DNA of 64,000 nt from Pestalotiopsis fici W106-1 (taxonomy: Eukaryota; Ascomycota; Sordariomycetes; Amphisphaeriales; Sporocadaceae). Below the pieces are notes generated by a model, which saw only the letters and a list, made by a program, of their open reading frames with translations, did no database searches and was not told the origin of the DNA. The DNA is taken from positions 5,985,013-6,049,012 of the forward strand of contig NW_006917093.1 in the NCBI RefSeq assembly GCF_000516985.1. Reading direction: 5' to 3'. Position 1 is the first letter of the stretch. The number at the start of each line of letters is the position of its first letter. A program made the translations under genes and the position numbers. Below are positions 39,424-64,000 of the stretch, in pieces.

Positions 39424-40680
39424 ACCTTAAGTTGAAAATAAATAATAATGATTTTAAATTATTAATATTAGTTTTTAACACATTATAATGAAGGGGTTAT
39501 ATTATATTAAGCATTTTATAAGTTATAAAAAAGTATAATAAAAGCATATATTATTATTTATAAATTAGCCGTAAATTAATACTTTTATAGCAAAGCCTTA
39601 GCGTCGCGGGGCTTAATTATATGCTGAGTTATCGTATTAAGCTACGCTTAACACGCATCGTTAAAAAAGATATCGACGAATTTTTAGATTTTTATTAATC
39701 GATAAATATAATTTAACGGCTTTTTTAATTTAATAATTATTATTATTCGATAAATCGAATTCCACCGTATATAAAACTTTAATTAATAAGCAGGGTTAGC
39801 ATTAAATTAATTAAATTAACTCAAATTTAATCAAATTGATTTATTAATTAAATTAACTCAAATTAAATTAAATTAAATTATTAATTAAATTAAATTGAAT
39901 TAAATTAAATTATTAATTAAAATTAATTAAGTAATTAAAAATGCTAACTTAAATTTAATTTATTTAATTAATAAGTAAATTTAAATTTAAATTAATTATA
40001 TTAAGTTAATAACTCAATTAATTTATTAACTTAAAAATTATGAATTTTAATTAATAATTTAATAATTAGAATAATATAAACCCATATTTACATATAAGAA
40101 AAATTAATAAATATAATATTAATTTTCTTTTTATTTTGCCGGTTTTTTAATTTTTAAAAAATTAATTTTCATTTGATTATTTTATTAAACTTTAAAATTT
40201 ATTTTAAAGTTAAGTAAAAGTTATAAAATAAAAGTAATAAATGCATTATTATTCCGCTTTTTAATGTAAATTAATAACGCTTTAAGCTTAATTTATTCAT
40301 TTATTTTATAATTAAAATTAATTAATTTAATTAACACCTTAAATAAAACGCAACTTAATTAAATTAATTAAACTCAAACTTAAAACTTAAATTAATTTTA
40401 CTTACTTTATTAATAAGCAATTAATTAAAAAGTTAATAATGAATTTATTTCATAAAATAATTTATTATTTAGAATTTTCGTTTTATTATAAATCGAATTT
40501 AATAAATTATCGGCTTTAGCTTTTAAAAATCCCTTTAATAAAAGCTTATATATTTCGTAGTTATATTTTATTAAAATAATAATTTATCGAATACGATTAA
40601 TTAAACCTATTATAAAATATTAATATTAAAAGTTATTTATAAAAATTAATAAAAAACTTATAATATGCGTATTTTCACGA
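39424..40680. repeat. A/T island, RIP-like, between Sds23 and the captain gene
   Basis: About 1.25 kb is almost entirely A and T, dominated by TTAA/TAAT/AATT words and a loose TAAAT repeat near 39800-39990, with only scattered CpG-bearing scraps (39600-39660). Both edges are sharp: the Sds23 stop on the left and normal G/C from about 40680 on the right. Such blocks in filamentous ascomycetes usually arise from repeat-induced point mutation of duplicated DNA, which turns CpA into TpA. No coding frame survives. I cannot tell whether it is an older dead transposon or part of the Starship's own 5' end. Confidence 0.85.
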
Positions 40681-40973
40681 AAATGATCCTTGAATGCGTA
40701 ATCTTTGGATGATATTTGTGTCGCGCGCCCAGATAATATGCGTGCTGCTTTTAAATCTACCAGGGCATGGTTTCAGCAAGCGCTTCCCTCGCAGGCTCCC
40801 CTGTATGTTGGCCCTCAAGCGACCTGGTCAGCTAAGCCTACCTACCAACTAACCTTACATAGGTACTTTACTGTAGTCAACCAACCGTACCTACGTTTAA
40901 GGCCCTCTCGTCCTACCGTCGTTTCGATTCACCTTTGTTCTCTCAGCATTCCCCCAAAGCTACCACTTTTCAA

Positions 40974-43329
40974 ATGCGCGCTGATCGTCGTAAACCACGG
41001 CACCTTAGCCGCAGCACCCCGCTGGCGATGGTGGTCCGCAGTGAAGATGATTCATCTGACACTGATACATGCGAACCACCAAGTCCAAAAGACACAGAAG
41101 TGGAAGCTGTCGATAGCCTATTCAAAACACTGTGGGACAACGTTGAAAACCATCGAAAGGCCGGCATAATCAGAAGGTCGTATAGCCGTAAAACAGAGGC
41201 TTTGTTGGAGCGTCAAAAAGGGAAGTGGCAAGAGTAAGTCTCTATAAATACCTTGCGTAGATATAGCAACTAATAGTACTAGGTTCTGCCTTGCACTCAA
41301 AGTTGACCCGCATCAGCAGCTCCACAAGGCGGATGCATCTGTTTTCAAAGCCTTCCTTGAATGGAGAGTTGAGAAAGGACGGATTTTGAAAGTCTCTGCA
41401 ATCCAAAACTACTGGAAGGCACTCAGTTCTATTTATGCCGCGACAACACAAAACTGGCTCGGGGAGTCTATTCTGGCGGACGTAGGCGGTGTAAGTAGTC
41501 TATTCCAGCACTCTCGCTCTTCGCTAACATAGTAGTTCATCCATGAGGTGCTGAAGCCAAGGTACAATCTAAGTGAAGAGCAGAAGGCGAAGGCTGGTCT
41601 TTACGTCGAGGATCTAGATATCCTGTTGAGCCATCACTGGCTCTCTGATACGGAAGTATTCCCACACGAACGCCTGCGCCTCCAGCTAGCCATCCTCCTC
41701 ACAATTGCGGGAGCCACTTCTTCGCGACCAACGGCACTCTTGAGTTTGCGGTACCGTGATCTTGAGTTCGCTGTCTTTCCACCGACGAAAGGCCTTGGCC
41801 GGTCGCAGCTGACTCTCACCGTACGTCTCACCAACACTAAAAGACGAGGGTATAAGCAGCACGCGGTCAAGTTTGGTTTCCACGAACAGGAGAACCTTAT
41901 CCATTGCCCCGTCTTGGGATTCCTGGCCCTGGCCCTGGCGGACGGTGCATTCCACACCCCCACCAGACTGGAGAAAATATATTCTCTTCAAGTCCCTGAC
42001 CATCAAGATCGCGTCACGCTCTACTTCAAGCCGGAGATTGCAGACAGATATGTCTTTCAGCGCATGGATGGAGTGGAGGGGCCTCTCGAGTACAGCCAGG
42101 CTCGGTACGCCCTACAGCGGCTGGGCAACTCCTGTGGGTACCTAGACAAACTCATGTTTTATGACCTACGCCGTGCTTCTGGCAAGATGCTCAATGAAGC
42201 ATACACGCCCGAGGAACGAAACCAGATCATGGGTCACACCGGCGGCACTTCTGCTGTCTACAGAAACTACTACATGCCAGAGTTCGTCGACAAGGATGTC
42301 CAATCCGTCTACTTCGGCGTGACGCCACGGGATAACGTGATTCGTGCGATTGGAAGAATCCGCCGAAATGCTCTCGCTCCAACGCGACTGACGCAGGACC
42401 AGCAGGACGAGGTGAAGCGAGATGCCAAGCTCAACGAAGCATATGCATCTCGTGACGAGGCCAAGCGTCTCGTGAAGCTGCGCTGCGGCACCGTGGCAAG
42501 CGCTAGGCAGAGGCAGGGCGAGCTCGATGACGACTTGAGGCTGCTGCTTCAAAAGTACGAGTCCGCAGCCAAGAAGGCCTTGAACCTTCGTACCAGCCTG
42601 AAGGGCCAAACTCTGCGCCAGTCGATGAGGGACTTCCACACGTTGGCAGACATCGATCTCGTCACTGGCTCGGCACAAAGCACCCAGCAGGAGGCCTCAT
42701 CCTCACAACCTCAATATGAGCTGCAGGAGCGAGCTGGGATCGCCGAGGCTCTCCGAGACTCCATGCAACAGTACGAGGGTCGAGAGCTTGATCGGATTCG
42801 GATCCGACTCGTGGAAAACATGGCAAACCTTTGTCACATGAGAGAGACAAGCACACGTCATCGTGGCACCAAGCGAGCCGTCCATTGTCCAGAGTCGGAC
42901 TCGGATTCGGAGCAGGATGTGAAAAGGCGCAAGGTCTCATCTGGGGCATCGAGCAGCCTACAGAGTGTCTTCCGCGTGAAGGCCAAGCCGGTCAACCTCT
43001 CCTGCCCATTCTGCCAACTCGACCCTTCTCTTGGCCCCGTGAGGAAGAACCACCAATATGCACGGATTGATAGTCTAGGCACACACATCTTCAAGCAGCA
43101 TTTCAACGAGGCAGGCCTATATAGAGGCAGTGAAGGCGGTGGAGGCCCCGAGTTCTGTTGCCCCTATTCAGATTGTATGGAACTTCTTCTTGGGGCCGCA
43201 GACTTTGCCGGGCATGCGCATGTGGTGCACGGTCTGGCCTCATTCCAGAAATCAACGCTGCCCCAGGCTGCTACAGCTGGCTCTGTGATCCAAGCGCTGA
43301 ATCAGGATTTTCATTTGTATACAGCTTGA
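40974..43329 (+). CDS. DUF3435 tyrosine recombinase, Starship 'captain'
   Basis: Three exons, 40974-41233, 41283-41490 and 41536-43329, with 49- and 45-bp introns, give 753 residues. Residues 86-155 form the helical N-terminal core-binding part. The catalytic half shows a first arginine in GATSSRPTALL (R220), a basic strand with TNTKRRGYK (about 255-263), FYDLRRASG (R368/R369), MGHTGG (H390) and VYRNYYMPE (tyrosines at 398, 401 and 402, the candidate nucleophiles). Two Cys/His finger-like segments close the protein: CPFC with a downstream H-x4-H (about 645-675) and CPYSDC with H-x4-H (about 695-720). Proteins of this family integrate and excise Starship giant transposons and sit at one end pointing into the element. 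Here the gene points right, toward accessory genes. All catalytic positions appear intact, so the enzyme may be active. Confidence 0.93.
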
Positions 43330-43620
43330 ACGGGCAGATTGTTTCTGCGTCCATTTTTTGCGTTGAATATGGTGCCAGCTGGACTAGGCAATCTTGCAGA
43401 ATGAAACTACATGCTTTGTGCAAATATAAAATTGAATCAAATAGCCTCTGCCTTATCGATATTTTGCATTAGGTCTAGGACGAATAGGCAGGTTCTGAGC
43501 TGTGTAAATCAATGGTGGTCCAAGGTGCTTTTGACATAAATGCCAAAGCACAAACAGGGCGAACAGGACATAACTAGAATGTGAACTAGCAAACAAACTC
43601 CGTGGAATATAGCGCTTGGA

Positions 43621-44274
43621 TTAGTGGATATTGATCGCGCGGCGTAGCGGGGTAGACTGCTGTACAGCATATCCGCAGTTGCCTAGAGGCCACGCTTCAC
43701 TGCTACACGCTATAACTACGAAAGAGTTGAACTTTTTTGATGTATCAATCGTTACCAGCCCGTGCTGCTCATCAATCACAACGCCCGACCACAACAGACC
43801 TCGCCGGATACTATCGAGAAAAGGCATGACGACCGCTAGCTGGCCCTGGCCAGCATTCTCCGCACTGACGATACCACCACGGCGACGACCACGAGTTACC
43901 GCATACCCACGATATGACCTGCGAAATCCCACCGCACGCCAGGCCCAGAGCGACGAGTTGGGTATAAGACAAGCTCGACCGAGCTGATTGAGGCAATCAA
44001 CTACCGAAATGACTGTCATGGTTTCCTGCGAGACAAGCCGAACCGGACGATACTGCATGGCGAGAAGAGCCAGTAGTTCACCCGCGGATGGACACTCCAA
44101 GGGTATCTTGTGCCCACGTCTGTTGGACTGGCAGCCGAGACTCTCTACAGAATGCGACCCATATGAATTCGATAGACCATGACAGGAAGACGTCGCAGGT
44201 ATGCCCGGGATCTTCGATTTCAGCATACGGCGACAGCAAGGCGACAGCAACAGCCCGAGCACGGTACACCTCAT
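43621..44274 (-). CDS. Hypothetical cargo protein
   Basis: A single open frame of 217 residues starts from the ATG at 44274; the frame is open a little further upstream without an ATG, so the real first exon may differ. The first 15 residues are hydrophobic and Cys-containing (MRCTVLGLLLSPCC), which could be chance. The middle holds SAGELLALLAMQYRPV, and the C-terminal half has a basic GRRRGG loop and short beta-like strands (QLAVVMPFLD, LLWSGVVIDE). I recognise no family. It converges with the captain gene, leaving 290 bp between stops. Confidence 0.5.
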   Translation of the reverse strand: MRCTVLGLLLSPCCRRMLKSKIPGIPATSSCHGLSNSYGSHSVESLGCQSNRRGHKIPLECPSAGELLALLAMQYRPVRLVSQETMTVISVVDCLNQLGRACLIPNSSLWAWRAVGFRRSYRGYAVTRGRRRGGIVSAENAGQGQLAVVMPFLDSIRRGLLWSGVVIDEQHGLVTIDTSKKFNSFVVIACSSEAWPLGNCGYAVQQSTPLRRAINIH

Positions 44275-44678
44275 TTGTATACGTGGTTCGAGGTAAGGAG
44301 AATCCCACAATGTTTGGACTTGCTATACTAAAGCTCATTGTTGGCCATACAGGCTTTCCCTTCAATGTTCACATAACTGTACATCGGGTACCTCTGACGC
44401 TGCGTCAATGGGCAGGCTCGGTCCAGACACCGTAAAGCACATAGGTACAAAGCTAGGCGCCGTCCTTTTACCCCATGTGGTAATGGGCGGCTAGATCCTT
44501 GCGCTACTGATACCCAGTACCTGGAAGACTATTACGGTTTTTGGATAACTGTATACTCAAAGAGGCAAGCAGGTGCCCTCCCTATACCTGTGTAAGTACA
44601 GTCGCTCCCCTGCCTTTGCGACATGCTCGAAGGCGCTCCCCACTCTTGCTTCTGCCGCCTCCACCGGGCATTTCCACT

Positions 44679-45359
44679 ATGGACACAGCTGGAAGGACAC
44701 CAATCGCTTGTCATGCTCTGGACAAAGAGCGCAAGCCTTTGGCCGGACTGCGTGTGATGTTGGAATGCTTTGGCGAGAATTTCTCCATCTACGAGGCATA
44801 CACTTCTTTCGATGGTTCTATCGACACATGGTATCCAGTCACAGAACTGGAACTGAACCCCCTTATCCCCGTTGCTGTCACTTCTCATGGTCTTTCCACT
44901 TGTCGTGTTTCCTTTGCCACGGCCGACTTCCTCGGTGAAGACGGGGGTGCATGGCCCTCTGTCTATGTCGACGTGGCTCTGAAGGCAGATCATCAGCACT
45001 CTGTTACCCTTCTCTACGCTGCTGCTGGCTACGCCGTTGAGGTTGCAGCACATGCAATACAGTTCAGTCCGGCGCCGGAGTCAGACGAGTTGCTAGACCA
45101 ACTCATCGTTGCCGACCCCCCGCAGGGTCTGCCCAGTCCAGGATCGTTGTTTCCCCCCTTTGCTGAACAGGAATTATCTATCGACCCAAGCATTATCGAG
45201 GCCCAGCCTCGAAGGAAAAGGGGTAGGCCACGAAAGCATCCTGTGAAGGTGGCGGATCCAGATGCCCCAAAAAGGAAGAGGGGGAGGCCAAGAAAAATTG
45301 TTCCTATGCACACCATGAAGAAAGAGTCGGAGGATCTGCAAGACGGATGTGACTTTTAG
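44679..45359 (+). CDS. Transthyretin/HIUase-like domain protein with two AT-hooks
   Basis: One exon, 226 residues. Residues 7-121 follow the transthyretin/5-hydroxyisourate hydrolase pattern: the opening strand IACHALDKERKPLAGLRV, a T-x2-DG turn at 42-46, and the late pair WPSVYVDVALK with a His-containing strand and LLYAAAGYAVEV where HIUases have their PLL...Y-[ST]-YRGS end. The C-terminal YRGS is absent and the Arg usually following DG is Ser, so enzymic activity is doubtful. The tail has two AT-hooks, each with core RGRPRK (181-186 and 201-206), separated by a Pro/Asp spacer. AT-hooks bind the minor groove of A/T-rich DNA, so a nuclear, DNA-binding role is likely. The fold call is from pattern, not a search. 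Confidence 0.72.
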   Translation: MDTAGRTPIACHALDKERKPLAGLRVMLECFGENFSIYEAYTSFDGSIDTWYPVTELELNPLIPVAVTSHGLSTCRVSFATADFLGEDGGAWPSVYVDVALKADHQHSVTLLYAAAGYAVEVAAHAIQFSPAPESDELLDQLIVADPPQGLPSPGSLFPPFAEQELSIDPSIIEAQPRRKRGRPRKHPVKVADPDAPKRKRGRPRKIVPMHTMKKESEDLQDGCDF

Positions 45360-45610: not shown

Positions 45611-46456
45611 ATGGCAGATCCAACCACTCCAGACGCGTTCCCGCTGTTTTCTCGCCTGCCTCCCGAAATTCGCCATGAAATTTGGCATTTGGCAGCAGAG
45701 GTCGGCGGTAACATTATTCACGTTACTATCACCAACGGTCAATTGCAAGCTGTTCGGCGGCGCCCAGAGCAGAGCCTGGACCGCACCACTCACCTGAGTC
45801 GCACAATCTACCGACAACACTACCAACACACCATCCCACTCGTTGGCTCCGCCGGGTTCATGCTTGTTAACTTCAATCGTGATGCCTTCTACTTCAGCGA
45901 CTTTAACCATTACCATTTCCAGGACTTCCGTCTTGGCAAGGAATGGCAGTGCCGACAACAGTCACTACGCAGAGTTATTCTTGGTCCGAATGCCTTTGAT
46001 ATGAAGTCCCGAAGACGAATAGACGCATTATTCAAGGCTTTCCGAATGTCGCCAGACTGGCAGGAGCTACGGATAAAGCTGGACGATGATACGAAGCCAT
46101 TTCGCCCTATCCCAGTCGCAGAGCTCCGCCCCCAGTGCCCCTTGCATCACTGTAACGAAAATCCTTATCACAAAATATCGGCTTGTCCCACGTGCAAGTG
46201 GAATGTTCATGTTTTTGGCCGTAGGTGGACTCGGTTCCATAATAATGGCTTCAGACTCTTACTCGATCCTGCCCTGCCCGCATATCCTACAGTACGTCAG
46301 ATCAAGAAAAGCAGAAGCCCGGCACTTGTGTGGACTAGATACACTCGGTGGCTCGAACTCGATCTCCCATTTGAAAAAGATGATGGTACGCCCGCTTTCG
46401 ACCTTCGGGGTCTTAATACTTGTTTGAAGGGGGATTTTTCACAGTGTCTTCATTAA
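45611..46456 (+). CDS. 2EXR-like domain protein
   Basis: One exon, 281 residues, starting at CACCATGG. The N-terminus FPLFSRLPPEIRHEIWHLA matches the 2EXR/F-box-like motif of a large fungal family, in which this helix opens a roughly 150-residue domain. The next strands (NIIHVTI, later HTIPLVGSAGFMLVNFNRDAFYF) fit the family's usual run from parental hydrophobic strand to FYF. A possible zinc-binding cluster (CPLHHC, then CPTC about 12 residues on) lies at about 177-196. The biochemical role of 2EXR proteins is not established. They are numerous in accessory regions. Confidence 0.75.
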   Translation: MADPTTPDAFPLFSRLPPEIRHEIWHLAAEVGGNIIHVTITNGQLQAVRRRPEQSLDRTTHLSRTIYRQHYQHTIPLVGSAGFMLVNFNRDAFYFSDFNHYHFQDFRLGKEWQCRQQSLRRVILGPNAFDMKSRRRIDALFKAFRMSPDWQELRIKLDDDTKPFRPIPVAELRPQCPLHHCNENPYHKISACPTCKWNVHVFGRRWTRFHNNGFRLLLDPALPAYPTVRQIKKSRSPALVWTRYTRWLELDLPFEKDDGTPAFDLRGLNTCLKGDFSQCLH

Positions 46457-46591
46457 TTCCCTAGTTGCTAGGCAGCGGGGCTTTGATAGCTAAATTTTAT
46501 TCAGTTGCGACTAGTAGCTCTCTGTTTGTCTGCAACTTGCTTGGATCCCACTGTGCCTCTGCGCTTGAGGGGCTGCCATCGCCCGATGCCT

Positions 46592-48110: not shown

Positions 48111-48888
48111 ATGATGGAGAGCGTCGTCCCTTTCAGATTTGGCGACCTCCCCGCAGGTAGGCTTCCATGGCAGAGAGGCCGCACTATAATTGCTGACAGC
48201 CTGTTTAGAAATTCGTATCCTCGTCTACGAACATCTATTAGTAGATCCAATAGTTGCCATACGACTTCGTTACAACGGGACCTTGATTTACGAACGGGTA
48301 CCTTTCTTTATGCAAAACCGGCTACCTCGAATCCCCAAAGACCTGTGCCTTGCCATGACAAGCCCCTTGTTGTATAGCGAATTTTCCCCACATTATGAAG
48401 CATACATGGCTAGGAATGTCCATCATGTATCCATGAGCGAGTTGGAGATATACTTGCAAAGTCGGTTCTTTGCAATTAATACGACTGGAAAGCTCATTGT
48501 CGAAGTAAGCGAATGGGCCACCCGTGATGTGAATATTATGCCGTTGCTACAATTCTGTTGGAAACACCCGACATACAACTGCCAATTTCGCACGGGAAAG
48601 ACCCATAGGTATATACTGGAAATTACTAAGCACCTTAATTGGCTACTTGATGTTGGTGAGGGACTGAAAAGGTGCATCGAAAGTGGTGCACTAGAAGCTA
48701 TTCAGGTACGCTGGCGCGGCTATACTATGTATGCCACCTTAGTCCGCGCTGGCCACCAGAAGAAGGGAGTCGTAAGTCAATCGCTGCAAAATGATTTGGC
48801 ATGGAAGTTGGGCATCGCTCATTTGCGGTGGATTTCATGGCGGGCGACGACAATGGACGATCCAGAGTCTCATGTTGCAGAGTTATGA
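48111..48888 (+). CDS. F-box-like/2EXR-related fungal protein
   Basis: Two exons, 48111-48156 and 48209-48888, with a 52-bp intron, give 241 residues. Splicing assembles FGDLPAEIRILVYEHLLVDP, the characteristic N-terminal F-box-like helix pair of fungal accessory proteins. The following strands (AIRLRYNGTLIYE, PRIPKDLCLAMTSPLLYSEFSPHYE) match the usual 'previous results, old contacts' pattern after that motif. F-box proteins bring substrates to SCF ubiquitin ligases through Skp1, and its divergent partner is a RING protein. Whether this divergent copy binds Skp1 is not shown. The last 40 residues are uncertain, because codon bias weakens there. Confidence 0.7.
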
Positions 48889-50334: not shown

Positions 50335-52308
50335 TCACGCATGAGTGTCCATAAGTAGCTTAACTAACCTATCCATATTGTCCTCAAGCCTGAGAAGACG
50401 CTGGGACATGTCATGATCTTGTTTGCCAGAACGCTTACTTCCCCTGTTAGCTTTTCTCTCCATCTTGTTATCCGCTGCATGCTCATGCTGTGGCGTTGGC
50501 CGATTCTCCTGAATCCATTGTTTCATTGCAGAGCCTAGAGTGCGCTCGAGCTGGGAGCGTGTGTAGAATTGATTGTGGGACTCCTCTGATTGGAGAGTCG
50601 TACGAATCAAGACACGCACGTCCGCATCTCTTAAATCATACTCTGAAGGGGTGAGAAATTCAAAGACAATGCACCTATCAATATCCAAGTCCCTAAACTT
50701 GAGTCCTGCCAAATCTTCCTCGTGGCCATGCTGAATCTCCACAGTCCCTTTCTTTAACCACTTTTCGAATTGAGTTCGCTGCTGTCGGTAGGAGGGAGCA
50801 GGCAACATGACACCTCGGCTCTGGCGTGCGTTACTGTTGCCACCATACTCTACCATCAACTGCTGCTTCTTGCTTATGTTCAGAACAAAGCCGTCGTATC
50901 TTTGTCCAGTCCATGGATCCGCAAAGTTCACCCAGCGTTCTGGATCATTGGTAAATGGACCAACATCAGTAAAGCCCAGCCGTGGTCTGTTTGGATTGGG
51001 CTTGTTTAAATCAGGAGCAGGGACAATTGTTATGCTCTCAAAATGATCCTCCCATGAGAACTCTGAAGCCTTCCATTTGGTCTCGTTGGGCGGGTGCACA
51101 TAAATTTCGGATGTTTTCGCCGGCTCAGAATCCTTATCCGGGGTGGTTTCAGCACTTGGCGCCGAAGCGTCCCGGGGCTTAGATGGGCTCAGCGTGTCCC
51201 GGAAGTTCGAGATCACAGTAGACTCGCCGGTGGAAGCCGCTCGTAGGAATGCTTCTGCTTCTTGTAGAAATTTTTGGCCGCTCCTCGACAGGTTGGTTGG
51301 TTTAACCGAGGAGAGAAATTCTTTGTCGCCCCCCTTGCGTGCAACAACCAGGGGTCCCACGCCTGAAGCTCCTTTGTTGCCCGGTATCTCGACCGGGGCG
51401 GGAATTTGGCTAGGCCCAGCCTGTTCTGAAGCTGCTTCAGTGCTCGGCTGGCGTTGATGTTCAGCGTTTGCATTGGCCGTCACGCCGGCTGCTATGGCGG
51501 CAGAGGCATTTGCGTGCTCCTTCTGATCCTGATCCGCCGTCTTCTGGCTGTTGAGTGCCTGGGCTGATGCTTTCGCAAGTTCGGCCTCCTTTTGCGCTTC
51601 TGTCAGGGCCGCCTCGGACTCTTGAGGGTTGGTAACAGATTTGCTTTTCAGAGCATTCTTTATCGCCTTGTCGGCATGATCAGTCGCTTTATCGTGCAGT
51701 GTCTTGGCCTGGACCGCCGCGGGGTCGGCTGCGTCAGCCTCTGACATGTTGGCATCACTTTCTACTGGTCGTTCGCCAGCCGTTATTTCCGGTTTTTTGT
51801 TTGGATTCTGCGCGCTGTCGCTGGCATTGTCCACCCCTCCCACTTGTGAGGGAGAATTACCTCTGCCTCTTTTTGCCGGCTCAGCGCCTGCTGAAGAACT
51901 GCCAGCACCTGCTTCAGCTTCACTGGCTAGACTTGGAGGACTTCCCGAATGAGGTTGATGAATCACTGTCGCCGGGCTTGAGGAGCCAGAGGAGCCAGAG
52001 GAGCCATCCAACCTGATGGGGGATTTGGAGCGTGTCTGGGGCTGCAGGTCGTCGGCAGCTCTCATCACCGCCGCAATAGCCTCGATGTTGTTTTTATCTT
52101 GCTCTGCCACTGTAAGACCTCTTGCCTTAGCTACCGCCAGCGCGGCGTTGCAAGTCCATTCTTCATACTTTGGATCAGCCCCGGTGCCGAGGTGCTTATT
52201 GATTGAACCTAATATTGCAGGCTTCTTTGCTTTTTTCCCAGGCTTCAAATCGAGGATTTGGGCTATGGAACGGAGTTGTGGGACGGCTAATTCATCGAAG
52301 GCCGACAT
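50335..52308 (-). CDS. SAP-like N-terminal, Ala/Glu-rich cargo protein
   Basis: One exon, 657 residues. Residues 1-40 (LAVPQLRSIAQILDLKPGKKAKKPAIL) resemble a SAP/LEM-type helix-extended-helix that contacts DNA. Residues about 95-305 are low-complexity, rich in Ala, Ser, Glu and Asn, with a helical Ala-Lys-Glu stretch that could form a coiled coil. Residues about 410-590 look globular (WKASEFSWEDHF, PRLGFTDVGPF, ERWVNFADPWTG, CIVFEFLTPSEYDLRDADVRVLI), then a basic linker and a short C-terminal helix LLRLEDNMDRLVKLLMDTH. I do not recognise the globular part. A DNA- or chromatin-associated protein would fit, but that is inference. Confidence 0.7.
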   Translation of the reverse strand: MSAFDELAVPQLRSIAQILDLKPGKKAKKPAILGSINKHLGTGADPKYEEWTCNAALAVAKARGLTVAEQDKNNIEAIAAVMRAADDLQPQTRSKSPIRLDGSSGSSGSSSPATVIHQPHSGSPPSLASEAEAGAGSSSAGAEPAKRGRGNSPSQVGGVDNASDSAQNPNKKPEITAGERPVESDANMSEADAADPAAVQAKTLHDKATDHADKAIKNALKSKSVTNPQESEAALTEAQKEAELAKASAQALNSQKTADQDQKEHANASAAIAAGVTANANAEHQRQPSTEAASEQAGPSQIPAPVEIPGNKGASGVGPLVVARKGGDKEFLSSVKPTNLSRSGQKFLQEAEAFLRAASTGESTVISNFRDTLSPSKPRDASAPSAETTPDKDSEPAKTSEIYVHPPNETKWKASEFSWEDHFESITIVPAPDLNKPNPNRPRLGFTDVGPFTNDPERWVNFADPWTGQRYDGFVLNISKKQQLMVEYGGNSNARQSRGVMLPAPSYRQQRTQFEKWLKKGTVEIQHGHEEDLAGLKFRDLDIDRCIVFEFLTPSEYDLRDADVRVLIRTTLQSEESHNQFYTRSQLERTLGSAMKQWIQENRPTPQHEHAADNKMERKANRGSKRSGKQDHDMSQRLLRLEDNMDRLVKLLMDTHA

Positions 52309-53375: not shown

Positions 53376-55240
53376 TCAAGCGTTGTATATATGTGCAGTT
53401 TGACCATCAAGTGGCTTGGTGTGAACAACCTTGATGTCGGAGAGGGCTATTCTAGGCGTATTTCGCAAACGTACGCGAGAGGTTCGGCGAGGGTCTTGGG
53501 CGCCTCGGGCGAGGTTCACTGATCTCACGCTGTGATGTGCAACATCGGGAGAGAAATCAGTCTCTTTGAAATCCATACGCGTGTAGGAGGAGTTGAGTAC
53601 TAGTTGGCGGACCGTATTGGCAAAGGCCGGTGAGCCGGAGACTGGATCATTAGCCATGCTGACAGGTTCTCGAGAGCCCGCGTGCACTTACCAACCGTGA
53701 CTTTGCTCCCTGGTGAGAAGGCGCAAGCATCTAAATACACCTTGAAGGACTGCTCCAGCTGCATCCGTCCGATGGTATGTATTTTCCATCTGTCCTGAAG
53801 ACTATGAGGGATAGACATGCCTAAGTCGTCGCCTTGAAATGTGAAGATTCTCCCGCAAATCAGACGCTGCTATGTTAGCTTGCAGCAGTTATTGCAGGGC
53901 TCTGGTCACTCACTTGACTGGAGCCGAGATTCATAAGCTCACTTAGCTGCTCTCTGCACCAATAGATATCGTCGTTCGTCCGCAAGGCCAAGATGAACTC
54001 AACGCGCCTGGTCTTGTCGCCGTAGAAGATGACGTCCGACAGTTTCCCAATCGTGCGAGCCAGGTTTGTCTGTGAGCCGCCTCGCAGAGGTCCCTGGAGT
54101 CGTTCCTTTTCTCGCTGGTCATGTCTTCGGCGATGTAGCAGGTGCAATGCATAGGGCATGATGCTAGACACGCCAGTGCTCTCCGCGAACAACAGAACCG
54201 AATCGTACTCCTCTAGATGTAGATTATTGCCGTAGGGGCCTTCCAGACGCATGCTCAAGGGCTTGGTAGAGGGATCTCTGACCAGGAAATGGATGTCCTT
54301 CGCGGCCGTCCCTTCGCTCCAGAAGAAGGCTGGCGTTGGTGTTCCGGCCAATCTATTGCGCAGCGGTGTTCCTGAAAGGTAGAGGTGGAAGTACATACCA
54401 GGATATGGCCGAATTGCGTCTCGAAGCGTCACTTTGACACAACTCATATCCTGGCTGGCGCCTATCGTTTCGATCTTGGTGGCCCTGCCCCGCCTCAAAA
54501 GAAGGAGCAACCTCCAGCACATGCCAACGAGAAGCAATGCACCGGCGACGAAGATCTGAACAGTAGAAGTGCCCAGACCTAAGGGCAGAACATGGATGGC
54601 CAGTGTGGCTAGACTAGCCGTTGCTAGCATGCCGTGTAGAAGACCGAACAATCCTTTCAGGCGGCGTCGAACGATCGGGACAGATGTGAACAGAAGGAGG
54701 AGGATCGTCAAGGACACCTGTCATCATTGTCAGAAAGGTTAAACGTACCATGGACTGACGCACCACCCATCCAGTGACAGTGTACGAACGCAGCTGTACT
54801 GATCTAGTCGATATGCTTATACCTCCATGAATGAGACCTTGCACGACGACGACGAGGCCGATCGCGTTGTGCCAGAGGTCGTACGTCCAAATAGAGATAT
54901 TGAGGATTGTAGCGAGAACGCGACCTGTAGTGAAGAGTGGGATCATGTTGAAAGTGCACAGAACAGCAGCTCTCTGTCCGACCTCAGCCGCAGATCGGAT
55001 GAATACGCTGAGGGTCAGCACATTCAGGACGAGATATGCTGAAGCCTGCGCAACTTGCAGTCTCGTCAAATGCCACAAAGACAATGGCATGAAGACATGC
55101 CGATTGATCCATGGAGCGAACCGGAGTGATAGTCGTCGGCGAGACCGAGAGAATAACAGTAGGATGATTATGGTTCCAGACACAATGGCGTACCAGTGCG
55201 GAACCTCGAAGGTCAGTCGAAATCCAAGGGTGGATGGCAT
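53376..55240 (-). CDS. Ferric reductase (FRE) transmembrane oxidoreductase
   Basis: Four exons, 54764-55240, 53914-54717, 53692-53869 and 53376-53641, with introns of 46, 44 and 50 bp, give 574 residues. Membrane helices surround two H-x13-H pairs, H124/H138 and H187/H201, the bis-heme ligands of this family. A flavin domain follows with PGMYFHLYLSG in place of the usual HPF/YxLSS motif. NADPH-binding marks come next: GPYG and the Gly-rich AESTGVSSIMP loop, then SKVTVVSGSP near the C-terminus. FRE enzymes reduce Fe(III) or Cu(II) outside the cell before uptake. For the first intron I used GTGCGT at 54763; the nearby GTACGT would leave only 31 bp. The frame is open upstream to an ATG at 55456, but that extension crosses a 31-bp repeat that is not a multiple of three, so I prefer 55240. 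Confidence 0.88.
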
Positions 55241-55309
55241 TTCGAAAACTTTGGGAAGGTAACGAGAGAGACGAGAGAGACGAGAAAAACGGGGGACAAG
55301 GGGGAACGA

Positions 55310-55401
55310 GAGCGAGAGAGATAGGGAACAGAAAACGGGAGAGCGAGAGAGATGGGGAACAGAGAATGGGAGAGCGAGAGAGACGGGGACAGAGAATGGG
55401 A
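55310..55401. repeat. Minisatellite, three ~31-bp copies
   Basis: Three tandem copies start at 55310, 55341 and 55372, each opening 'gagcgagagaga' and closing 'acaga(a/g)aa(c/t)ggga', set in a longer GA-rich tract from about 55265. It lies in the 508-bp divergent region between the ferric reductase and the MADS-like gene, so copy number might affect either promoter. Confidence 0.9.
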
Positions 55402-55748
55402 GAAAAAGGCGGCACGCCCAGAGGAGGAGATGTTGGTGAGTCCAACATGTTAACATGCAGGTACCCTGTGAAATCAAATTCCAACAAGCAAACAACCGAA
55501 AGCCGCAAGCCCGATTTCAGCATAGTACAAAAGCCCGGCGCTAAAGCGAGACGTGCGCCCAAAATAGCCTGGCCGAACAGCCCCGGTCCGAACGGGTTGC
55601 CGCGCGCTTAGGATCAGGACCCGGGTACCGTTCCGGCCTTCCTGCTCCGACCTCAATTCAACAAGTATATAATGACCGACAAACGAGCCTTTTCTCGTTT
55701 TCTGAAGATCTGTATCCAACTCTTGAATTCCCATAAGATTTCACAGAT

Positions 55749-56426
55749 ATGGCCTCCCGCAACTTTGTCAATCGCAGATATGGCGTGATGAAGAAGGCCA
55801 ATACACTCCACCGGCTGCACGGAGCTCGAATCGCAGTCCTCTTGGAGTGGAGTGGCACCGTCTATAGCTATCGCTCTGATGCCACTTGGCCTAACGGGGA
55901 CTTGGAGATCGACCCAAGCAATACGTTCTCGCCAGACCACTTCGAAACTGTGGCAGATCGGTCGAGTTCGCCCGCTGCGGCGCACTCAAACTCACTTCCA
56001 TCAACTACCAGCTCTGAGACATCAACGAGCAGTGATGGTTTGAGTAGCCAATCCGATTCCACAGATTGCAGCTATGTGACGGTTGCAGACGCCGAGCTGC
56101 AGGGGCTGGTCGCTCGGGAGGCCTCGGCAAGCTATCCCTCGTCCTCATCGTCCTGGTCCGAGGGATCCAGCACGGTCTCCACGACTTCTTCAAATCCATT
56201 CGGTCTCCCGAGCTTTTCCCCTCCAGCCTGTCAGACAGACGCAGATTCCTCCGAAACTATGCCGCGAGGGACCAAGCGTGACGCGTCTAGCTGGGCATCG
56301 CCAGCCGCATCAGCTGCGGTGACAGACCACCTGGAGGAATCGTCCAAGCGCCCGCGGCGGTTGCCTGCGAGAGTGGTGCGCAACAAGCGAGGGGCCCAGC
56401 CTGCACAGCCCAAGGAATACTTCTAA
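55749..56426 (+). CDS. Truncated MADS-box-like protein
   Basis: One exon, 225 residues. Residues 3-43 align by eye with the second half of a MADS box: F-x2-RR-x-GVMKKA-x2-L-x2-LHGARIAVLLEWSGTVYSY, against the F-x2-R-x2-G-x-MKKA-x2-L-x2-L-x-G-x5-LL-x5-G-VY pattern of Mcm1/SRF proteins. The N-terminal basic extension and the start of the DNA-recognition helix are missing; the protein begins where that helix would be half complete. The remainder is Ser/Thr-rich, with a short basic tail (KRPRRLPARVVRNKRG) that could be a nuclear localisation signal. A dimerising or regulatory MADS fragment is plausible; DNA binding is doubtful. Confidence 0.68.
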   Translation: MASRNFVNRRYGVMKKANTLHRLHGARIAVLLEWSGTVYSYRSDATWPNGDLEIDPSNTFSPDHFETVADRSSSPAAAHSNSLPSTTSSETSTSSDGLSSQSDSTDCSYVTVADAELQGLVAREASASYPSSSSSWSEGSSTVSTTSSNPFGLPSFSPPACQTDADSSETMPRGTKRDASSWASPAASAAVTDHLEESSKRPRRLPARVVRNKRGAQPAQPKEYF

Positions 56427-56507: not shown

Positions 56508-57342
56508 TTACATTTCCAATCGGATTGCTTGCAGTACTTCAGCAGTTGTCTTGTACTGCTGCTGCCAGCATCCCTTGATGACATTGCCGCCCTTCACATT
56601 TGACAGATCTGGAAAAGATCCTGCTCCGAATAAATCTTCCACTTTTGACTCGTAAGCCTGTTTTTCTGAGTACGAGTTCCATTGTGGTGGGCTGGTCATA
56701 AATGGCCAGTATCCCATCTCAACAGTATAGAAATAGATCCTAGACTGAATATATCGGTTGCCTGTGTCGACAACCATCGCAGGCGGGGGTCAAAGAAAGG
56801 AGTGTCGGGCAAGTGGCCGCCATCCAGACCCAATTGATCACACGTTGACCCGCCAAAATCACAAAGCCAGACACTGACAGATGACTCATTAACTTGCTCC
56901 ACTAAGACATTTTCCAGTCGCAAATCTGAGTGTATCACGCCGCGCTCGTGCACATGAACGACTGCCTCAGTAACCTGCTCACAAATCTTGTAGCGCTGGA
57001 GAGGGTGCAATTCGGTGTGGTAGGAGTCGATATAGTTCTGTAGATCCCCGAGTTTGGCCTTTGCAAGGTGGATGCCACTCTGATCAAACCTCAGGTACCT
57101 GTTGAGAAGGCTTAGCTAACTGTTACGGATGCGGGGAAAAGAAATACAAACGGTACAATCCTGGGGTGCTTTCCCAGCACCTCCAATATGCGTCGCTCGA
57201 CATCGATTGCCTTGCTGTTTTGTTCCTCCAAGGCTTTGCGATTCTCATTCTGAACGCGAATCCGCATCGGCGCTTTGAGAACCACCTCAGGTTCCGCCTG
57301 ATAGAAATTCGAGCTGGAGCCGTGATATGGTAGAGGGTGCAT
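56508..57342 (-). pseudogene. Protein kinase-like gene with a one-base frameshift
   Basis: Exon 1 is 57152-57342; exon 2 starts at 57098 after a 53-bp intron. Kinase landmarks in order: the VVLKAP lysine, the helix-C glutamate in VERRILEVLG, the hinge region RIVPYLRFD (restored by splicing), catalytic loop HSDLRLEN, DFGGS, and TDIFSLGSI. At the TTT run 56731-56733 the frame breaks; one extra base there would continue into FYTVEMGYWPF and the normal C-lobe to a stop at 56508. As read, the protein ends 13 residues after the break without its C-terminal lobe. This is either a real 1-bp deletion or a homopolymer sequencing error. The catalytic loop has S for the usual R, as in several fungal accessory kinases. 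Confidence 0.72.
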
Positions 57343-58287
57343 AATGATACTCGGCTAACAAGCATGGAGAAGGGAAGTCATTTCCAAAATTGGGTGTCGC
57401 GAGAGTTCATTTATGCGAATGCTAGTGAATTGGCAGACGTGCCATGCTAGGAACTAGTTTCTGTTTGTACACTTGACAGGAACTGGGATCAGCCGACGGT
57501 TTGCACACTTCAATGTTGTTTCACCAGCCAAAACGTGGCGCTGTGAACTTTGATTGAGATCCGCCTCTAAATAGTCTCGCCACATAGCTAAAGCATGCAA
57601 CGGCATAGGCTACTCAACCACCCCCCAATCGGTGAACACGCCTATTAATGGTTAGGGCAATTATAACCTCCACAGGCCTCCTTTACTCGGTTTGACCCAA
57701 GCTCCTTCTCTATGGCTTCATGGCCAGGTTTGTCTTTATCTGCGCAGGGCTCAAACGGCAAATTGCCTCTCGCTCTTGCCGCAGGAAAAATCTTCGTACA
57801 TATGTAGTTGAAGCACATTCTGCTAGACGAATAGCCAAGATTTGGATTGTCAACACGGAAGATTGAGAAATTATATTTGAAAGTTGCGTCCTACGTTTGA
57901 AATAGAACCAGCGTCCTCTTTAAATAGACATTCTTTACGCGTCCAAAAGCGATGGCTACGTGAATACATCACGGCTGAGCAGTTTGAACGCCTCAGTCAA
58001 AGTACATCAGCACCGAATGCTGAAGCACGGAGTCACTTGAACAGACACGCTGCATTACGACACAAAATGGTCCCTTGACCATATTTCCAACCTCCACAAG
58101 AGGCAGTGGCGACATGACGCATTTCGAAAAATCCCTCTGTCGCGAAGAAGTATCATGGCCTAGGCTATATGGTACCCACTGTTAAGATCACTGGTCCATT
58201 CACTGTAACCGGGCATTCATGCAGGCGGAACGCTGCAGTCCCTTTTCATGCGCACAAAGTTTTGTCATGTACTAGCTACCCTGTTCC
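57343..58287. other. intergenic, about 0.95 kb, no gene seen
   Basis: No splice-consistent coding exon was found on either strand. A 64-codon open stretch at 57884-58078 has no features of interest. Confidence 0.45.
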
Positions 58288-59624
58288 CTACAGGCTATGC
58301 TCCTTTTCTTGGGAGGCACTTCTCAACGTGGGCTGCAAGTTTTCCATGCACTTCAACATTTCTTGTCCCAAAGTAACGAGTTCTTGTGGTCCCTCTTTTG
58401 CATAATTGCTTGTGTCGCACTGTATGCGCGAATAGATAGCTTCTTGTTCTCCCTCAGGACGATCGCGGAAAATCTCGCCCGCGAAGATGTACCAATTGCA
58501 AAGAGCGACGAAAACCGCTTGATCTTGTGGGGAATTCTGATCTTGTGGGGGATTCTGGCTGTATAAGTCCTCGGCATGACATGCAGGGATTCCTCTTTCC
58601 ATAAGTCGCTCCTTCCTGAGAAGAACAGTGAAGGAATGCCAGTTTTCGAACACGGTAAGCTTTTCCTCAATTTCATAGTCGCGAATAGGAATGCGTTCCG
58701 CTATTGCATTATTAGTCAAGCCGTCCAAACGGTCTTAGAACCTACCCGAGTACATATCCTTGACGGCTCTATCGACATGCTTGACTTTAATGAACTTTGC
58801 CTCGAGAACCAGATACTTCACAAGGCCGCAGAGCTTTTCGAGCTTTTCCTTGGATGTGGAAACTGCTGTGTCCTCGACCACCTTCACGAATTCATCTAGG
58901 ATGAGTCGAACTATCCCAAAGCCGTAAGACCGAATTTCGGCTATATGATACATTAATGAGTGAAAACCAAGAACGGCACCAAGTACTTACTATCTTTGCT
59001 GTGAATGAATTGGTATTTCACTTGACATTTGAACTTCTCGAAACCGTCCGGAAGATTCTTCTCAACATAGTCAAAAAAATAACCAGCTGCATCATCAAAT
59101 AACTCGAGCTCTTTCTTCGAAACCCAAGTTTTGGCCCAATCTATCATGGGAGCACGTGGATAACGGCCATGTTTCCAATTCCCTTCTTGGTCGTGCTCTT
59201 CTTCATTGTACTCTTCCTCGTCGTACTCTTCCTCGTCGTACTCTTCCTCGTCGTACTCTTCCTCGTCGTACTCTTCCTCGTCGTACTCTTCCTCGTCGTA
59301 CTCTACCTCGTCGTACTCTTCCTCGTCGTACTCTTCCTCGTCGTACTCTTCCTCGTCGTACTCTTCCTCGTCGTACTCTTCGTCGGGATCTTCTTCGTCG
59401 GGATCTTCTTCGTCGGGATCTTCTTCGTCGGGATCTTCTTCGTCGGGATCTTCGCTGTGCTTCTCTCTTGGTTCGTCTTTGACAACGGCACGGACTTTCG
59501 ACAGAACAAGCCGTTTTTGGGCCACCTCTTGCTTAGTGATTTTGTTTCTCACTATACTAGCGTATGTCTGGGTCGTAGTTGCACCAGGACCTTTTGTGTG
59601 TATCTTAGCATATGTTGGTAGCAT
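58288..59624 (-). CDS. Acidic pentapeptide-repeat protein
   Basis: Three exons, 58991-59624, 58746-58940 and 58288-58700, with introns of 50 and 45 bp, give 413 residues. After a basic N-terminus (1-55) comes a block of tandem pentapeptides: five of DPDEE type, then about eleven YDEEE (one YDEVE) and two decayed copies. The C-terminal 270 residues look globular and mostly helical (DWAKTWVSKKELELFDDAAGYFFDYVE, RLILDEFVKVVEDT, EEKLTVFENWHSFTVLLRKE). I recognise no family. The exon limits are supported by frame and by matching hydrophobic helices on both sides of each junction. The start is the first ATG; an in-frame extension upstream has none. The first and last exons are the firmest. Confidence 0.68.
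59205..59453. repeat. 15-bp coding minisatellite
   Basis: Near-perfect tandem repeats of the 15-mer 'tcgtactcttcctcg' (59221-59370, plus strand) pass into 'tcgggatcttcttcg' units (about 59386-59450). On the minus strand they encode the YDEEE and DPDEE pentapeptides. Because the unit is a multiple of three and free of stops, two plus-strand frames are open across it too, as a by-product. Confidence 0.95.
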
Positions 59625-60084
59625 TTTGTCGTTGCTATACACCGAGGAAGATTATTCGCTGTTTCAATCCACAACAAGGTATTAACAAGTCAAGCCTTTT
59701 ATCGCGCAGTCCTGACCGTCGCCTGTAGCCAAATGTTCTATAAGTGGCTAAAATTGTTGTAAAAAAAAGCCCCTGCCCCAGCCAGAAACAATTGACTGGT
59801 ACGCGTTATCGTTGCATCGCATCAGCAGGGGTTCATCTACTGCGCTCTTCATTGTCATGCCAGCATATGACAATTGCGTTTTGAAGAACTGTTTGGCCCG
59901 AGGGGGCTGGTGTCCTCGGAAACCAGGAAACCTTGTCGGATCAGGTACTGTCCACCTATGTCCACCCATTAAATCGCTAAGCTCTGGTCCTATGTCACGT
60001 ACAGATACCTCCTACGTGCTTGCAGATGCCGAAAATCTTGATCAAAACAATCACCAGAAGTCGATACCCTGACATGCCAATAAT

Positions 60085-60835
60085 TCAATTCACCAATAGA
60101 AGCCAAAGCCAAGTGTCGCGCTGCCTCCAAAATTTTGTTTCGGTCTTGTATTGTCCGTTACGGATATTGCGTACTCCCCGCTTGAGGTTAACACATCTCT
60201 CACTATGCTTCGGCTTTTGGCAGAAGCGGCACTCTTGATCCCTTCCGCGGGTGGATAGCTTCACCTCGTTTCCGTGCATAGCTTATTGCTGACATTATTT
60301 GAATTAGTTGACAGTGGCGCATCTCGCTGCATGTACAAACTTCACCGCGTTCCTTTGCAGATGTGGCGAAATGAATAAGCAAATATTTATGCATATGGGC
60401 TTGACTGACTCCGAATTCGAGATCGTCAGGACTTGATGAATTTGCAGACCCACCGGCCGTGTGCTTAGTGATCGATGCAGCAGTAGGACCAATGTAACCA
60501 CAGCCGGCAGCAGTTTTCACGCACGGGAACCAGCGAGGCGACTTGTCCTTGCCGACGCACCATGGCATTCAGCTGTCCTGCACGTTTCAGGGTTCATCCC
60601 AATCTGGCAAGCGAAACTGAGGAAGGCGCTTACTGGGGTGGAATAGCCAATAACGAATGCAGTGTAGTCGTTGCAGTGGAACTCTCCTCGAACGACCCCA
60701 CTGCACTGCATGCACATAGATATGATTTGTTTATCACATTCACGTCGGGGCTCCTGCAGTCTGACCGCATGCGGTGATATTGACTGGGAAGCCACATTCC
60801 GGACAATGTCGCCCAGGATGGGTCTGGAACATCAC
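60085..60835 (-). CDS. Possible multi-exon Cys-rich gene, uncertain
   Basis: Several minus-strand pieces look coding but I could not join them confidently. A start piece near 60831 reads MFQTHPGRHCPECGFPV. A middle piece (about 60640-60710) reads CSGVVRGEFHCNDYTAFVIGYSTP and ends at a good GTAAGC donor. Another (about 60570-60605) reads MNPETCRTAECH. A last piece (about 60230-60515) contains KTAAGCGY and HMHKYLLIHF. Regularly placed Cys and His suggest a small metal-binding protein. Part of the first piece recurs in degraded form at 61650. It could equally be a pseudogene. Confidence 0.3.
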
Positions 60836-62104
60836 CGCTGCTTGGCTCAGATCATTTGGGCAGAATTGAGATGCCAACGTAAACTTCTATGTACCTGCTT
60901 AGATAGAATCACTCGGTTGGGCCTCAGAAAGGTGTACTCTTTTGGATTACAGGAAGTGGCTGGGACCGACCTCTGAAGGTTGTTCACTTGTGGTTTTCAT
61001 TCGCAAACACCATTTGAGATCACCGATCGCTCAATCTTTGTTACTGCACAGTTATACAGACCAAAAATTGCAAGAGAATCGAAATGTTTACAAGTCAAAA
61101 TAGTATGTCAAACCACTATTTCTCAACTATTATTCCAGGCCTAACTATATCAGATGTACCATACGCCCAAACCGCAGGTATGAGTTACGCTTTGCAGACA
61201 CAAGGAGAGAGGCAGCTCGAAGAGGGGCGGGAATGCGCCTGTGTCGAGCCGATGAAAGACGGTTGTAGATGTCAGTGCTGCATAAGATGCGGCTACTGTG
61301 TGTGGATGGTTGGAGCCACTGCTTCTTTCGCGACCGCCGGCATAATAGGGCTAAAAAAATGTAAGTCTCATGTTCCGCAAGTCTAGCAATATTTACTAAA
61401 GCTAGATGGAAGTGAATTGAATACGAGAATACGATAGTGGGCAGACCAATTCCTTCTTGTATGGGCTGCAGGCTTTGCGTCGGTTAGCGTAGGTGGCTGG
61501 GGAGTGAATATGTTACCATCTAACACCAAATAAAAACGGAGTGTGTCTGGACGCTTTGAATGATTTACTGGAATCGTTCCCTTGCGTTCTTGCTTGCAAA
61601 AAGACCTTGCATGGAATGCGCCTCGACCAACTTATTGACTAACCAGCATCGCCAACGATGGGTCTGGAACATCATCGCGACTTAACCAATATAAGTTCGG
61701 CGGAATAGAAATGCCGGTGAAGAAGCAATTTGTCACCAAGCACTTGCCGAGAAAGGTAGGCCGGGTGAAGGTCAGAATGAATTTCTGCTGCATAGGTATC
61801 CTGGTAGTACATACATCATTGCCGTTTCAGTGCGGGCCCTGCAAGCTTATGCAGAGTCCAATCATTGAACATGTTCGACGGTCACTCGTAACTGTAGCAT
61901 TCTCACGCCCGGTTGATGTGAAAGAGACTGTATGACCACAACGCCCGACTTCTATGACAGCTAATGTGATTTGTGTTTTTGCTACGTATGCAGGGCATTC
62001 TCAAGAACTGCAGACAGATTCACTGTGTGGAAAGTGGCCTCATTCTCGACTCGGGCGTCTCGGGGCTGTGCCAAATTGATTTCAGGCAGAATTGAAATGC
62101 CAGT
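60809..62104. repeat. Three degenerate direct repeats of about 80 bp
   Basis: Copies lie near 60809-60885, 61651-61725 and 62020-62104. Copies one and two share 'gatgggtctggaacatca' near the left. All three end in a variant of 'ggcagaattgaaatgccagt'. Spacing is irregular and the copies are clearly diverged, suggesting remnants of an old duplication in the cargo. Confidence 0.6.
61084..61386 (+). CDS. Small Cys-rich hypothetical protein with one hydrophobic segment
   Basis: An open frame of 100 residues. Residues 50-72 contain a dense cysteine set (CAC, CRCQCC, CGYC) and are followed by a hydrophobic stretch (VWMVGATASFATAGIIGL) that could span a membrane. A donor-like GTAAGT lies at the end, so a further exon may exist. 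No family was recognised. The short length and lack of context keep confidence low. Confidence 0.35.
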   Translation: MFTSQNSMSNHYFSTIIPGLTISDVPYAQTAGMSYALQTQGERQLEEGRECACVEPMKDGCRCQCCIRCGYCVWMVGATASFATAGIIGLKKCKSHVPQV

Positions 62105-62201
62105 GACCAGTCTCTATATAACATGCTATGCACCGACCCAAATATCTTAATACTAAGTTCTACCAGCATCGCAATTATATTACTTCTTCTTCCATACAAA
62201 G
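61387..62201. other. intergenic with repeat remnants
   Basis: About 0.8 kb including two of the degenerate repeats. A 74-codon open stretch at 61711-61935 is not accepted as a gene. Confidence 0.4.
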
Positions 62202-62966
62202 ATGGTTACCCGTAAACAGATCCGCCTCAATGCCTTCACGCACATGCGGCCAAAACTACCTTCTGAAGCGGCTCTTATAGTGAGCATCTGTCAAGATCTT
62301 GGCCATCTTTCCCGCGGCAAAACTCTCGATGAAGAAGCCTTAGACCGAGCGATCTCCTCGATGGACGAATTCATCCAGGAGCGGCCACAGGACCCCTTGA
62401 TCAGATCGGCGTGCACCAAGATGCATGAATCGGCGGACTGCAATCAAGACAACCACTACTTTCCAAGAGAAGAGTTGCTGCAAGGAGTTTGTGGATCTCT
62501 GGATAATCTCTGCCATATATATCGGCCTTCAGATTCCCTAGCGGAAGTGGTGTATTGGATGGCAGAAGTCACCCAGAAGGAGGCTCTCCACGACCAGACC
62601 AAGACGACATGCGCTGAAATGGTTGCATCAGCCCCGATCTGCAGCTTGAAAGGAAACTTCTGCGATCCAGTTCAGGTCTTGCAAGGCCTCGACCGAAAAC
62701 ATGCGCAGTACAACCAGCTCTTGAGTCGTTTTCAAGGGGCAGAGAAACGTGACGAAGGGGACAAGTTATATGCTTGGATCTGTGAGCAACATCCTCAGAG
62801 TCAGTGGGAAAAAGCCGATAGAGATATGTGTCTCTTTCTTCGGGGAGAAAGACTCGGATGGCTGCGAACAGCACGAACAGCAATGTTGGGTATGCCAATG
62901 ATCTTGGCAACATTGGCCATTAAGTTTGGCTGCTTTGTGGATGATCGGACAAAAGAATACATCTGA
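62202..62966 (+). CDS. Hypothetical cargo protein with C-terminal hydrophobic helix
   Basis: One exon, 254 residues, clean frame from an ATG at 62202. It is mostly helical, with even spread of Cys (about ten), and a segment MDEFIQERPQDPLIRSAC that resembles a helix-turn-helix pair of unknown type. The C-terminal 25 residues (TAMLGMPMILATLAIKFG) could be a tail anchor. The antisense strand also has an open frame across the 3' half, which I reject as a shadow. Function unknown. Confidence 0.6.
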   Translation: MVTRKQIRLNAFTHMRPKLPSEAALIVSICQDLGHLSRGKTLDEEALDRAISSMDEFIQERPQDPLIRSACTKMHESADCNQDNHYFPREELLQGVCGSLDNLCHIYRPSDSLAEVVYWMAEVTQKEALHDQTKTTCAEMVASAPICSLKGNFCDPVQVLQGLDRKHAQYNQLLSRFQGAEKRDEGDKLYAWICEQHPQSQWEKADRDMCLFLRGERLGWLRTARTAMLGMPMILATLAIKFGCFVDDRTKEYI

Positions 62967-63546
62967 GGATGATTGGTTCTGGGTTACGGGAAGTTTCGGT
63001 ATAATGAAGTATGTCTCTGGCAGTACCTTTAACATCTTCTTTTGAATTTTAGCCTCTAGTGCTTTGACCAAGCTTTCGTAATGAGATCTATCCCCATAGG
63101 ATGGTGTGTGTACAAGTTCCTTCTTCCAGTCTCTAACTCTCCCCGTACCATGCAATGAAGTACTAATAGGGGATGGCGAGGTACATGAGAACTTACCAGG
63201 ATAGTGGCACGCAGTACAAATGTGGCAACACCACAGTAGACCACCAGCAGCGAGTTAGAGAGCCATTTTAACCCCTCCCAGGGTATTGTAGCGAGTCCCA
63301 TGGCCTACACTAAAGATTGTCTCGGAGTTCGTAATGCCTCCGTTCACACTGTTCCTTTGGAAATGAACTCAACTTCTGATCTGATTCTTCATCAACCCTT
63401 GAAGCGGGACTTCTTTGGTTGAAGACTTGATATATAGCTCACTTGTAATATTACCGTAGTAGAATCGAATATTTGAAAGGAAACAAAATGAAAACCTTCA
63501 CAATCTCCCAACTGTCTGAACTTTCGCTCCCAGGCTGTCACATGGT
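62967..63546. other. convergent intergenic, no gene confirmed
   Basis: 580 bp. A minus-strand piece starting at 63301 (MGLATIPWEGLKWLSNSLLVV, a possible signal or anchor) ends at a GTAAGT donor near 63194, but no acceptor joins it in frame to a convincing second exon. Confidence 0.4.
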
Positions 63547-64000
63547 TCATTCCAGATTTCCAGCACAAATATCCGCCAGCCCTGGCAAGTCAAAGCTTCC
63601 ACGCATAGGAGCGTGGTCCATACGAGACGCTTTGGTCTCTTCGGAAATGCCTATGACTACCTCGTAGGTGATTCCATTCCTTCGAATGCCCTCCCTGAGC
63701 CACTCGAGCAAGACCCCCAGGCTTCTCTTGACATCTTCATCGAGCTTCGCCGTCTCTGTGCCCTACAGAGAGTGAGAATGTGCCGAAGGATTTGGTATGT
63801 TGAACTTACAGGTGCTCCCTGACTCTTGCGTCTGACGAAGTCTGCACAAATCTTGTTACCGACTCTGGCCAAAGCTGCGAGAATAAGGTAAGCCATGTGG
63901 GCCTTTTCCGCATCGAGGCAGGAGGTCAATTCTCGGTAAAGTTTGATGGTGTCGTCCTGGTATCCTGTGCCCAAGCCGTCTGCCACCTGGTCGGTGCAGT
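63547..64000 (-). CDS. Hypothetical protein, 3' part only (runs off the window)
   Basis: Two exons are visible, 63810-64000 (open at the right edge) and 63547-63762, over a 47-bp GT-AG intron that keeps frame. The 135 residues seen are helical: DDTIKLYRELTSCLDAEKAHMAYLILAALARVG, then KLDEDVKRSLGVLLEWLREGI in exon 2. No family was recognised. The start lies beyond the window. Confidence 0.6.

Follow-up and report, generated by a model that had tools for sequence, protein, structure and literature searches.

Starships are giant transposons that transfer large blocks of genes between fungi. The captain, a tyrosine recombinase, uses its tyrosine to cut the ends of the element and a short target, moving the whole block. 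In the Phoenix family (Janus, Horizon, Thetis and Limos) the captain comes first and points inward, and TTAC lies within the target or direct repeat (PMC12153272, PMC12257634); the direct repeats given are TTTAC, TTTACT and ATTAC (PMC12257634), and the Janus target is A(N3)TTACTA(N2)A(N15)CT. The Hephaestus family, comprising Nebuchadnezzar and its relatives, uses TTAC(N7)A, and 18 of 20 Starship elements have terminal inverted repeats (PMC12153272). Many Starships are reported to be inserted in other transposons and AT-rich regions (PMC12134995), and the accessory families named for them are NLRs, patatins, ferric reductases and DUF3723 (PMC12506042). Here we analyse a stretch of 64,000 nucleotides (the window) from the genome of the tea-dwelling fungus Pestalotiopsis fici W106-1, located at C3:5985013-6049012 (contig NW_006917093.1). 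It very probably contains the captain-bearing 5′ end of a Starship inserted in the relict of a hAT transposon mutated by repeat-induced point mutation (RIP), and so adds a probable intact example for P. fici. No Starship report for this species was found in the main text of 5.39 million open PMC papers, where the single paper that names both mentions P. fici only in connection with pigment or melanin clusters and among its references; the captain may well already be present in the supplementary captain lists of a Starship survey.

The genome comprises 51.7 Mb in 20 contigs, and was described as a scaffolded 24.5-fold draft of 118 scaffolds with heavy RIP (PMC4320822). It is the one genome examined, and all copies of the target repeat come from within it. 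The remaining 96 kb up to the right end of the contig was added, with the window coordinates continued to 160022. The GC content divides this sequence into distinct sections, with values of 0.512 for the core (1–39423), 0.145 for 39424–40664, 0.499 for the island (40665–129499) and 0.228 for 139417–160022. In the low-GC stretches the dinucleotide ratios are of the RIP type, and the island overall is without a RIP signature.

The left junction was located by comparison with related repeats. Fourteen such stretches were fetched, and in nine of them the hAT part is present up to window position 40660. Eight of the nine then run on past the window's break with sequence common to themselves, while the window enters unrelated DNA. 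The continuation of one (L030) is only about 50 bases long and two others (L024 and L025) later reach runs of N; the ninth (L027) diverges earlier. That uninterrupted copies continue where the window breaks off points to insertion of the element into the hAT relict, and by this alignment the left junction is at 40660–40662, 1.24 kb past the Sds23 stop codon (39421–39423) and 313 bp before the first ATG of the captain. Even without a second strain, copies of the target repeat that run through without interruption elsewhere in the genome thus locate the insertion point to within two bases. The sequence-only reading had proposed the left end of a Starship beside Sds23, starting at 39424. The left end is upheld but the start was wrong, since 39424–40660 is an AT-rich RIP-mutated repeat flank that is partly hAT relict; the element starts near 40661 and continues well beyond the end of the window.

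The second hAT piece is 87% identical to the uninterrupted copy at C3:6133342-6133593, and one copy of the repeat encodes the hAT dimerization domain Dimer_Tnp_hAT (E = 1.2e-18). Between the window copy and its nearest relative there are 22 transitions in the RIP direction against 6, with the junction base among the former. The T at 40661 may have been the C of a TTAC repeat before mutation, or may belong to a copy of TTAT. Read by eye, the junction TTAC appears to be a splice donor of the hAT gene in reverse complement. Over 1500 bases of the nearest hAT copy, the strand contains TTAC six times.

Two contigs misjoined through the AT-rich repeat would place the captain beside Sds23 falsely, and the published assembly is scaffolded, with the join lying within a repeat. 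However, 39424–40664 contains no N, and a random misjoin would hardly land on the TTA(C) core just outside the captain. A misjoin elsewhere in the AT-rich stretch would leave the junction of captain and hAT standing. We regard such an artefact as very improbable.

At the 5′ end of the element the captain comes first, on the plus strand, pointing into the island and away from Sds23. It matches the DUF3435 profile with E = 9.1e-67 (226 bits, cut-off 25.8) and, with splice sites picked by eye, has no stops across its three exons, in agreement with the sequence-only reading of an intact DUF3435 recombinase at about 41 kb directed into unusual genes. Over 735 residues it shows complete identity to PFICI_05930 of P. 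fici W106-1, for which the database start is the ATG at 41028. Tyr365, Arg368, His390 and Tyr402 are conserved in all ten aligned sequences (its own included), and Arg220 and Lys258 in at least 90%; we take these residues to have catalytic-type roles. The recombinase would break and rejoin DNA by way of its tyrosine, and may be active. There are three places in the genome that match DUF3435, of which the captain is the sole strong one (227 bits, versus 29 and 26.5). Among 7995 candidates scored there is a single close relative, from Pestalotiopsis sp. IQ-011 (79%), followed by Xylaria curta at 43%. The IQ-011 protein is annotated as arginyl-tRNA--protein transferase 1, and is apparently misnamed.

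A DUF3435 gene domesticated for a host function, with no transposon, would also be present as a single copy, as the captain is here, and DUF3435-like genes without elements are known. Yet the catalytic-type residues are conserved, the one close relative among the 7995 candidates scored is unlike the distribution of a widely conserved host gene, and the captain sits at an insertion breakpoint. We give this explanation almost no credence. No second copy of the two element parts tested was found in the genome.

As a single element the island would span 88.8 kb or more. Sixty-five island frames were scanned for Pfam families, and 79 coding-like segments were listed. Three of the four frequent accessory families are represented, DUF3723 and NLR clearly and ferric reductase in divergent form. 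DUF3723 is the informative family here. It is located at 113326–115920 in continued coordinates, 72 kb from the captain, and the whole genome contains five exon matches in two clusters, one in the island and the other at C1:4220877-4294928. Both are within 80 kb of DUF3435 matches, the latter being 5–79 kb from another such match. The relatives of the island DUF3723 protein (11 among 7991 scored) are an unnamed entry at 63%, and Hypoxylon, Xylaria multiplex and others at 43–45%; none of the 11 is named Pestalotiopsis. The NLR is a HET-NACHT protein at 126357–128753. After it, in a different frame, come WD40 repeats that closely resemble each other, 120–126 bases long, and run up to 129499, where the N begin. 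Such repeats are found in the Podospora het-e type.

The ferric reductase passes the NAD_binding_6 cut-off on one exon (22.8 bits, cut-off 22.2), but when two exons are joined it falls below (20.6 bits), as does Ferric_reduct (25.7 against 28). The translation has two H-x13-H pairs, which we take to be the ferric reductase motif. Since the scores straddle or miss the cut-offs we describe it as divergent, and to that extent the ferric reductase of the sequence-only reading is retained. The kinase that it named is confirmed. The AT-hook/transthyretin fusion gives both matches, but each is just short (transthyretin 21.9 bits, cut-off 25.3; AT-hook 17.2, cut-off 17.4), and the truncated MADS protein is seen as a partial match that is likewise below the cut-off. 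The conserved host gene on the other side of the captain has a CBS match (38724–39038), at 22.9 bits slightly under the cut-off of 24. Other families in the island are 2EXR, HD_3 (two matches), DUF7924, HNH_2, F-box, DUF7727, C2H2 proteins and kinases.

An edge captain, an exact breakpoint within a repeat, a TTAC core and DUF3723 in the cargo together fit the left end of a Starship. All of the island, including every gene to 64 kb, would be part of one element. At 129500–139416 the island meets 9917 N, perhaps an assembly gap, and the sequence beyond is all AT-rich; the right end would lie in or near this run. Several observations weigh against our interpretation. The search for the element ends fixed the left junction through the repeat copies within the genome, but neither the right end nor a direct-repeat pair was found in readable sequence up to 160022. 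No terminal inverted repeat turned up in the readable part of 38001–160022, where none of the 11-mers from the reverse-complemented 40656–40720 recurs. For the other half of the hAT, a plus-strand continuation beginning from the junction was looked for at the end of C3 and not found; continuation pieces 377–530 and 538–601 (80%) are present at 143727–143880 and 144044–144107, with the preceding bases absent. None of the 65 frames scanned contains a patatin, and the island ferric reductase is not among the matches listed in a genome scan for NAD_binding_6. There are at least 150 NACHT exon matches in the genome, such that one within 89 kb is expected with P ~0.23; with NACHT genes so common, the NLR cargo counts as weak evidence for a Starship. 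None of the six TTAC hAT copies fits the full Janus motif including (N15)CT, and the closest hAT copy (L032), with TTACTG and a T after N7, fits neither target motif.

The missing right end and direct repeats, the abundance of NACHT-type genes and the lack of a family for most of the scanned island frames would also be consistent with a stranded captain, where the recombinase, with perhaps a few kb of DNA, derives from a Starship and most of the island is ordinary fast-evolving accessory DNA beside the centromere, no longer one mobile unit. Against this, the left junction is sharp, the captain is open and un-mutated, and DUF3723 is found about 73 kb inside, a family present in this genome only less than 80 kb from DUF3435 matches. 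We consider a stranded captain unlikely, and prefer a Starship inserted at the hAT relict.

In the proposed mechanism the captain would insert the element at a TTAC core in the RIP-mutated hAT relict, near a large AT-rich block. RIP acts on duplicated DNA. The left junction, the place of the captain and the un-mutated island show an insertion that either followed the RIP damage to the flank or was spared it. The AT-rich block at the end of C3 is probably the centromere of this chromosome, and if so the locus bears on where Starships settle harmlessly. It is conceivable, although rather doubtful, that an Amphisphaeriales/Xylariales lineage of Starships finds a safe harbour in the splice-donor TTAC of dead hATs packed within centromeric heterochromatin. 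If that were true the element would sit beside the centromere without breaking host genes, and part of its cargo (the 657-aa protein) would have no known relative.

The features of the window are collected in Table 1.

Table 1. Coordinates of the features in the window, with the Starship element as interpreted here
Feature	Coordinates	Strand	Remarks
Sds23 (CBS-domain protein)	37264..39423	+	last core gene before break; multi-exon, 5′ limit approximate
AT-rich RIP-mutated repeat flank	39424..40660		outside element, between Sds23 and element; from GC and RIP indices
hAT transposon relict, piece 1	39654..39789	-	adjoins piece 2 in related copies
Further AT-rich repeat lodged within hAT relict	39790..40408		missing between both hAT pieces in related copies
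hAT transposon relict, piece 2	40409..40660	-	truncated at element junction
Left insertion junction	40658..40662	+	window TTAT; uninterrupted aligned copies 6/8 TTAC, 2/8 TTAT
Probable Starship element, left part	40661..64000	+	continues to at least 129499 (65 kb past window)
Captain, DUF3435 tyrosine recombinase	40974..43329	+	exons 40974-41233, 41283-41490, 41536-43329
Cargo, transthyretin-like domain with AT-hook tail	44541..45359	+	both slightly under cut-off
Cargo, 2EXR-family protein	45611..46456	+	E 9.1e-11, 43.2 bits, cut-off 24.8
Cargo, 657-aa orphan frame	50335..52308	-	no Pfam match
Cargo, divergent ferric reductase	53875..55495	-	at least two exons
Cargo, partial MADS-box-like protein	55737..56423	+	SRF-TF 21.9 bits, cut-off 26 (below)
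Cargo, protein kinase piece	56699..57115	-	Pkinase 44.9 bits, cut-off 31.7
Frame with acidic tandem repeat	58953..59642	-	DNA repeat 59190-59453; no Pfam match above cut-off

On the host side no Pfam match at E ≤ 0.01 was obtained for 37264–38352, the 5′ part of Sds23, and the name itself is our assumption, following the sequence-only reading, with no family match behind it. Beyond Sds23, away from the element, there are genes for an importin-type protein and a PAS/GATA protein, presumably WC-1. The repeats of the flank have 160 genome matches (own copy included), and also match the AT-rich end of the contig. Among the matches listed they occur on 10 contigs, mostly as one cluster per contig with a second place on C4 and C12, and they are at the contig end on C3, C11, C12, C15 and C16; these clusters may mark centromeres. 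The 20.6 kb at 139417–160022 consists of RIP-mutated AT-rich repeats shared with clusters on other contigs. Within the island, frame 48190–48888 has no Pfam match, and the 657-aa frame returned only itself among 7997 candidates scored (from 5.8 billion proteins). The two HD_3 (nucleotidase-type) matches are on opposite strands within 78538–80142 in continued coordinates.

Elsewhere in the genome a second Starship-like locus is located at C1:4220877-4300267. Its DUF3435 match is distant and partial, covering 105 of 418 positions at 29.3 bits, and four DUF3723 exon matches, three with stops, lie within 80 kb in the direction of the recombinase frame. The third DUF3435 match, at C2:2192814-2193101 (26.5 bits), lies within an open 323-aa frame, and C2 has no DUF3723 among the matches listed.

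Compared with the described systems, the locus resembles the Phoenix family in having the captain first and directed inward and in its TTAC target, and four of the six TTAC hAT copies fit A(N3)TTACTA(N2)A, the first part of the Janus motif. It differs in that the full motif fits no copy, and membership of the family would be a matter of target-site likeness. The same applies to the Hephaestus family, where TTAC(N7)A is fitted by five of the six TTAC copies but not by the closest hAT copy. The captain shares a likeness of tyrosine-recombinase fold with the Crypton and Cre/Xer recombinases, and its match to Phage_integrase has E 0.048 (13.9 bits, cut-off 27.1). The captain and Crypton recombinase domains are described as very distantly related (PMC12134995). 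Unlike the Crypton and Cre/Xer enzymes, the captain here belongs to DUF3435 and borders a large region of cargo.
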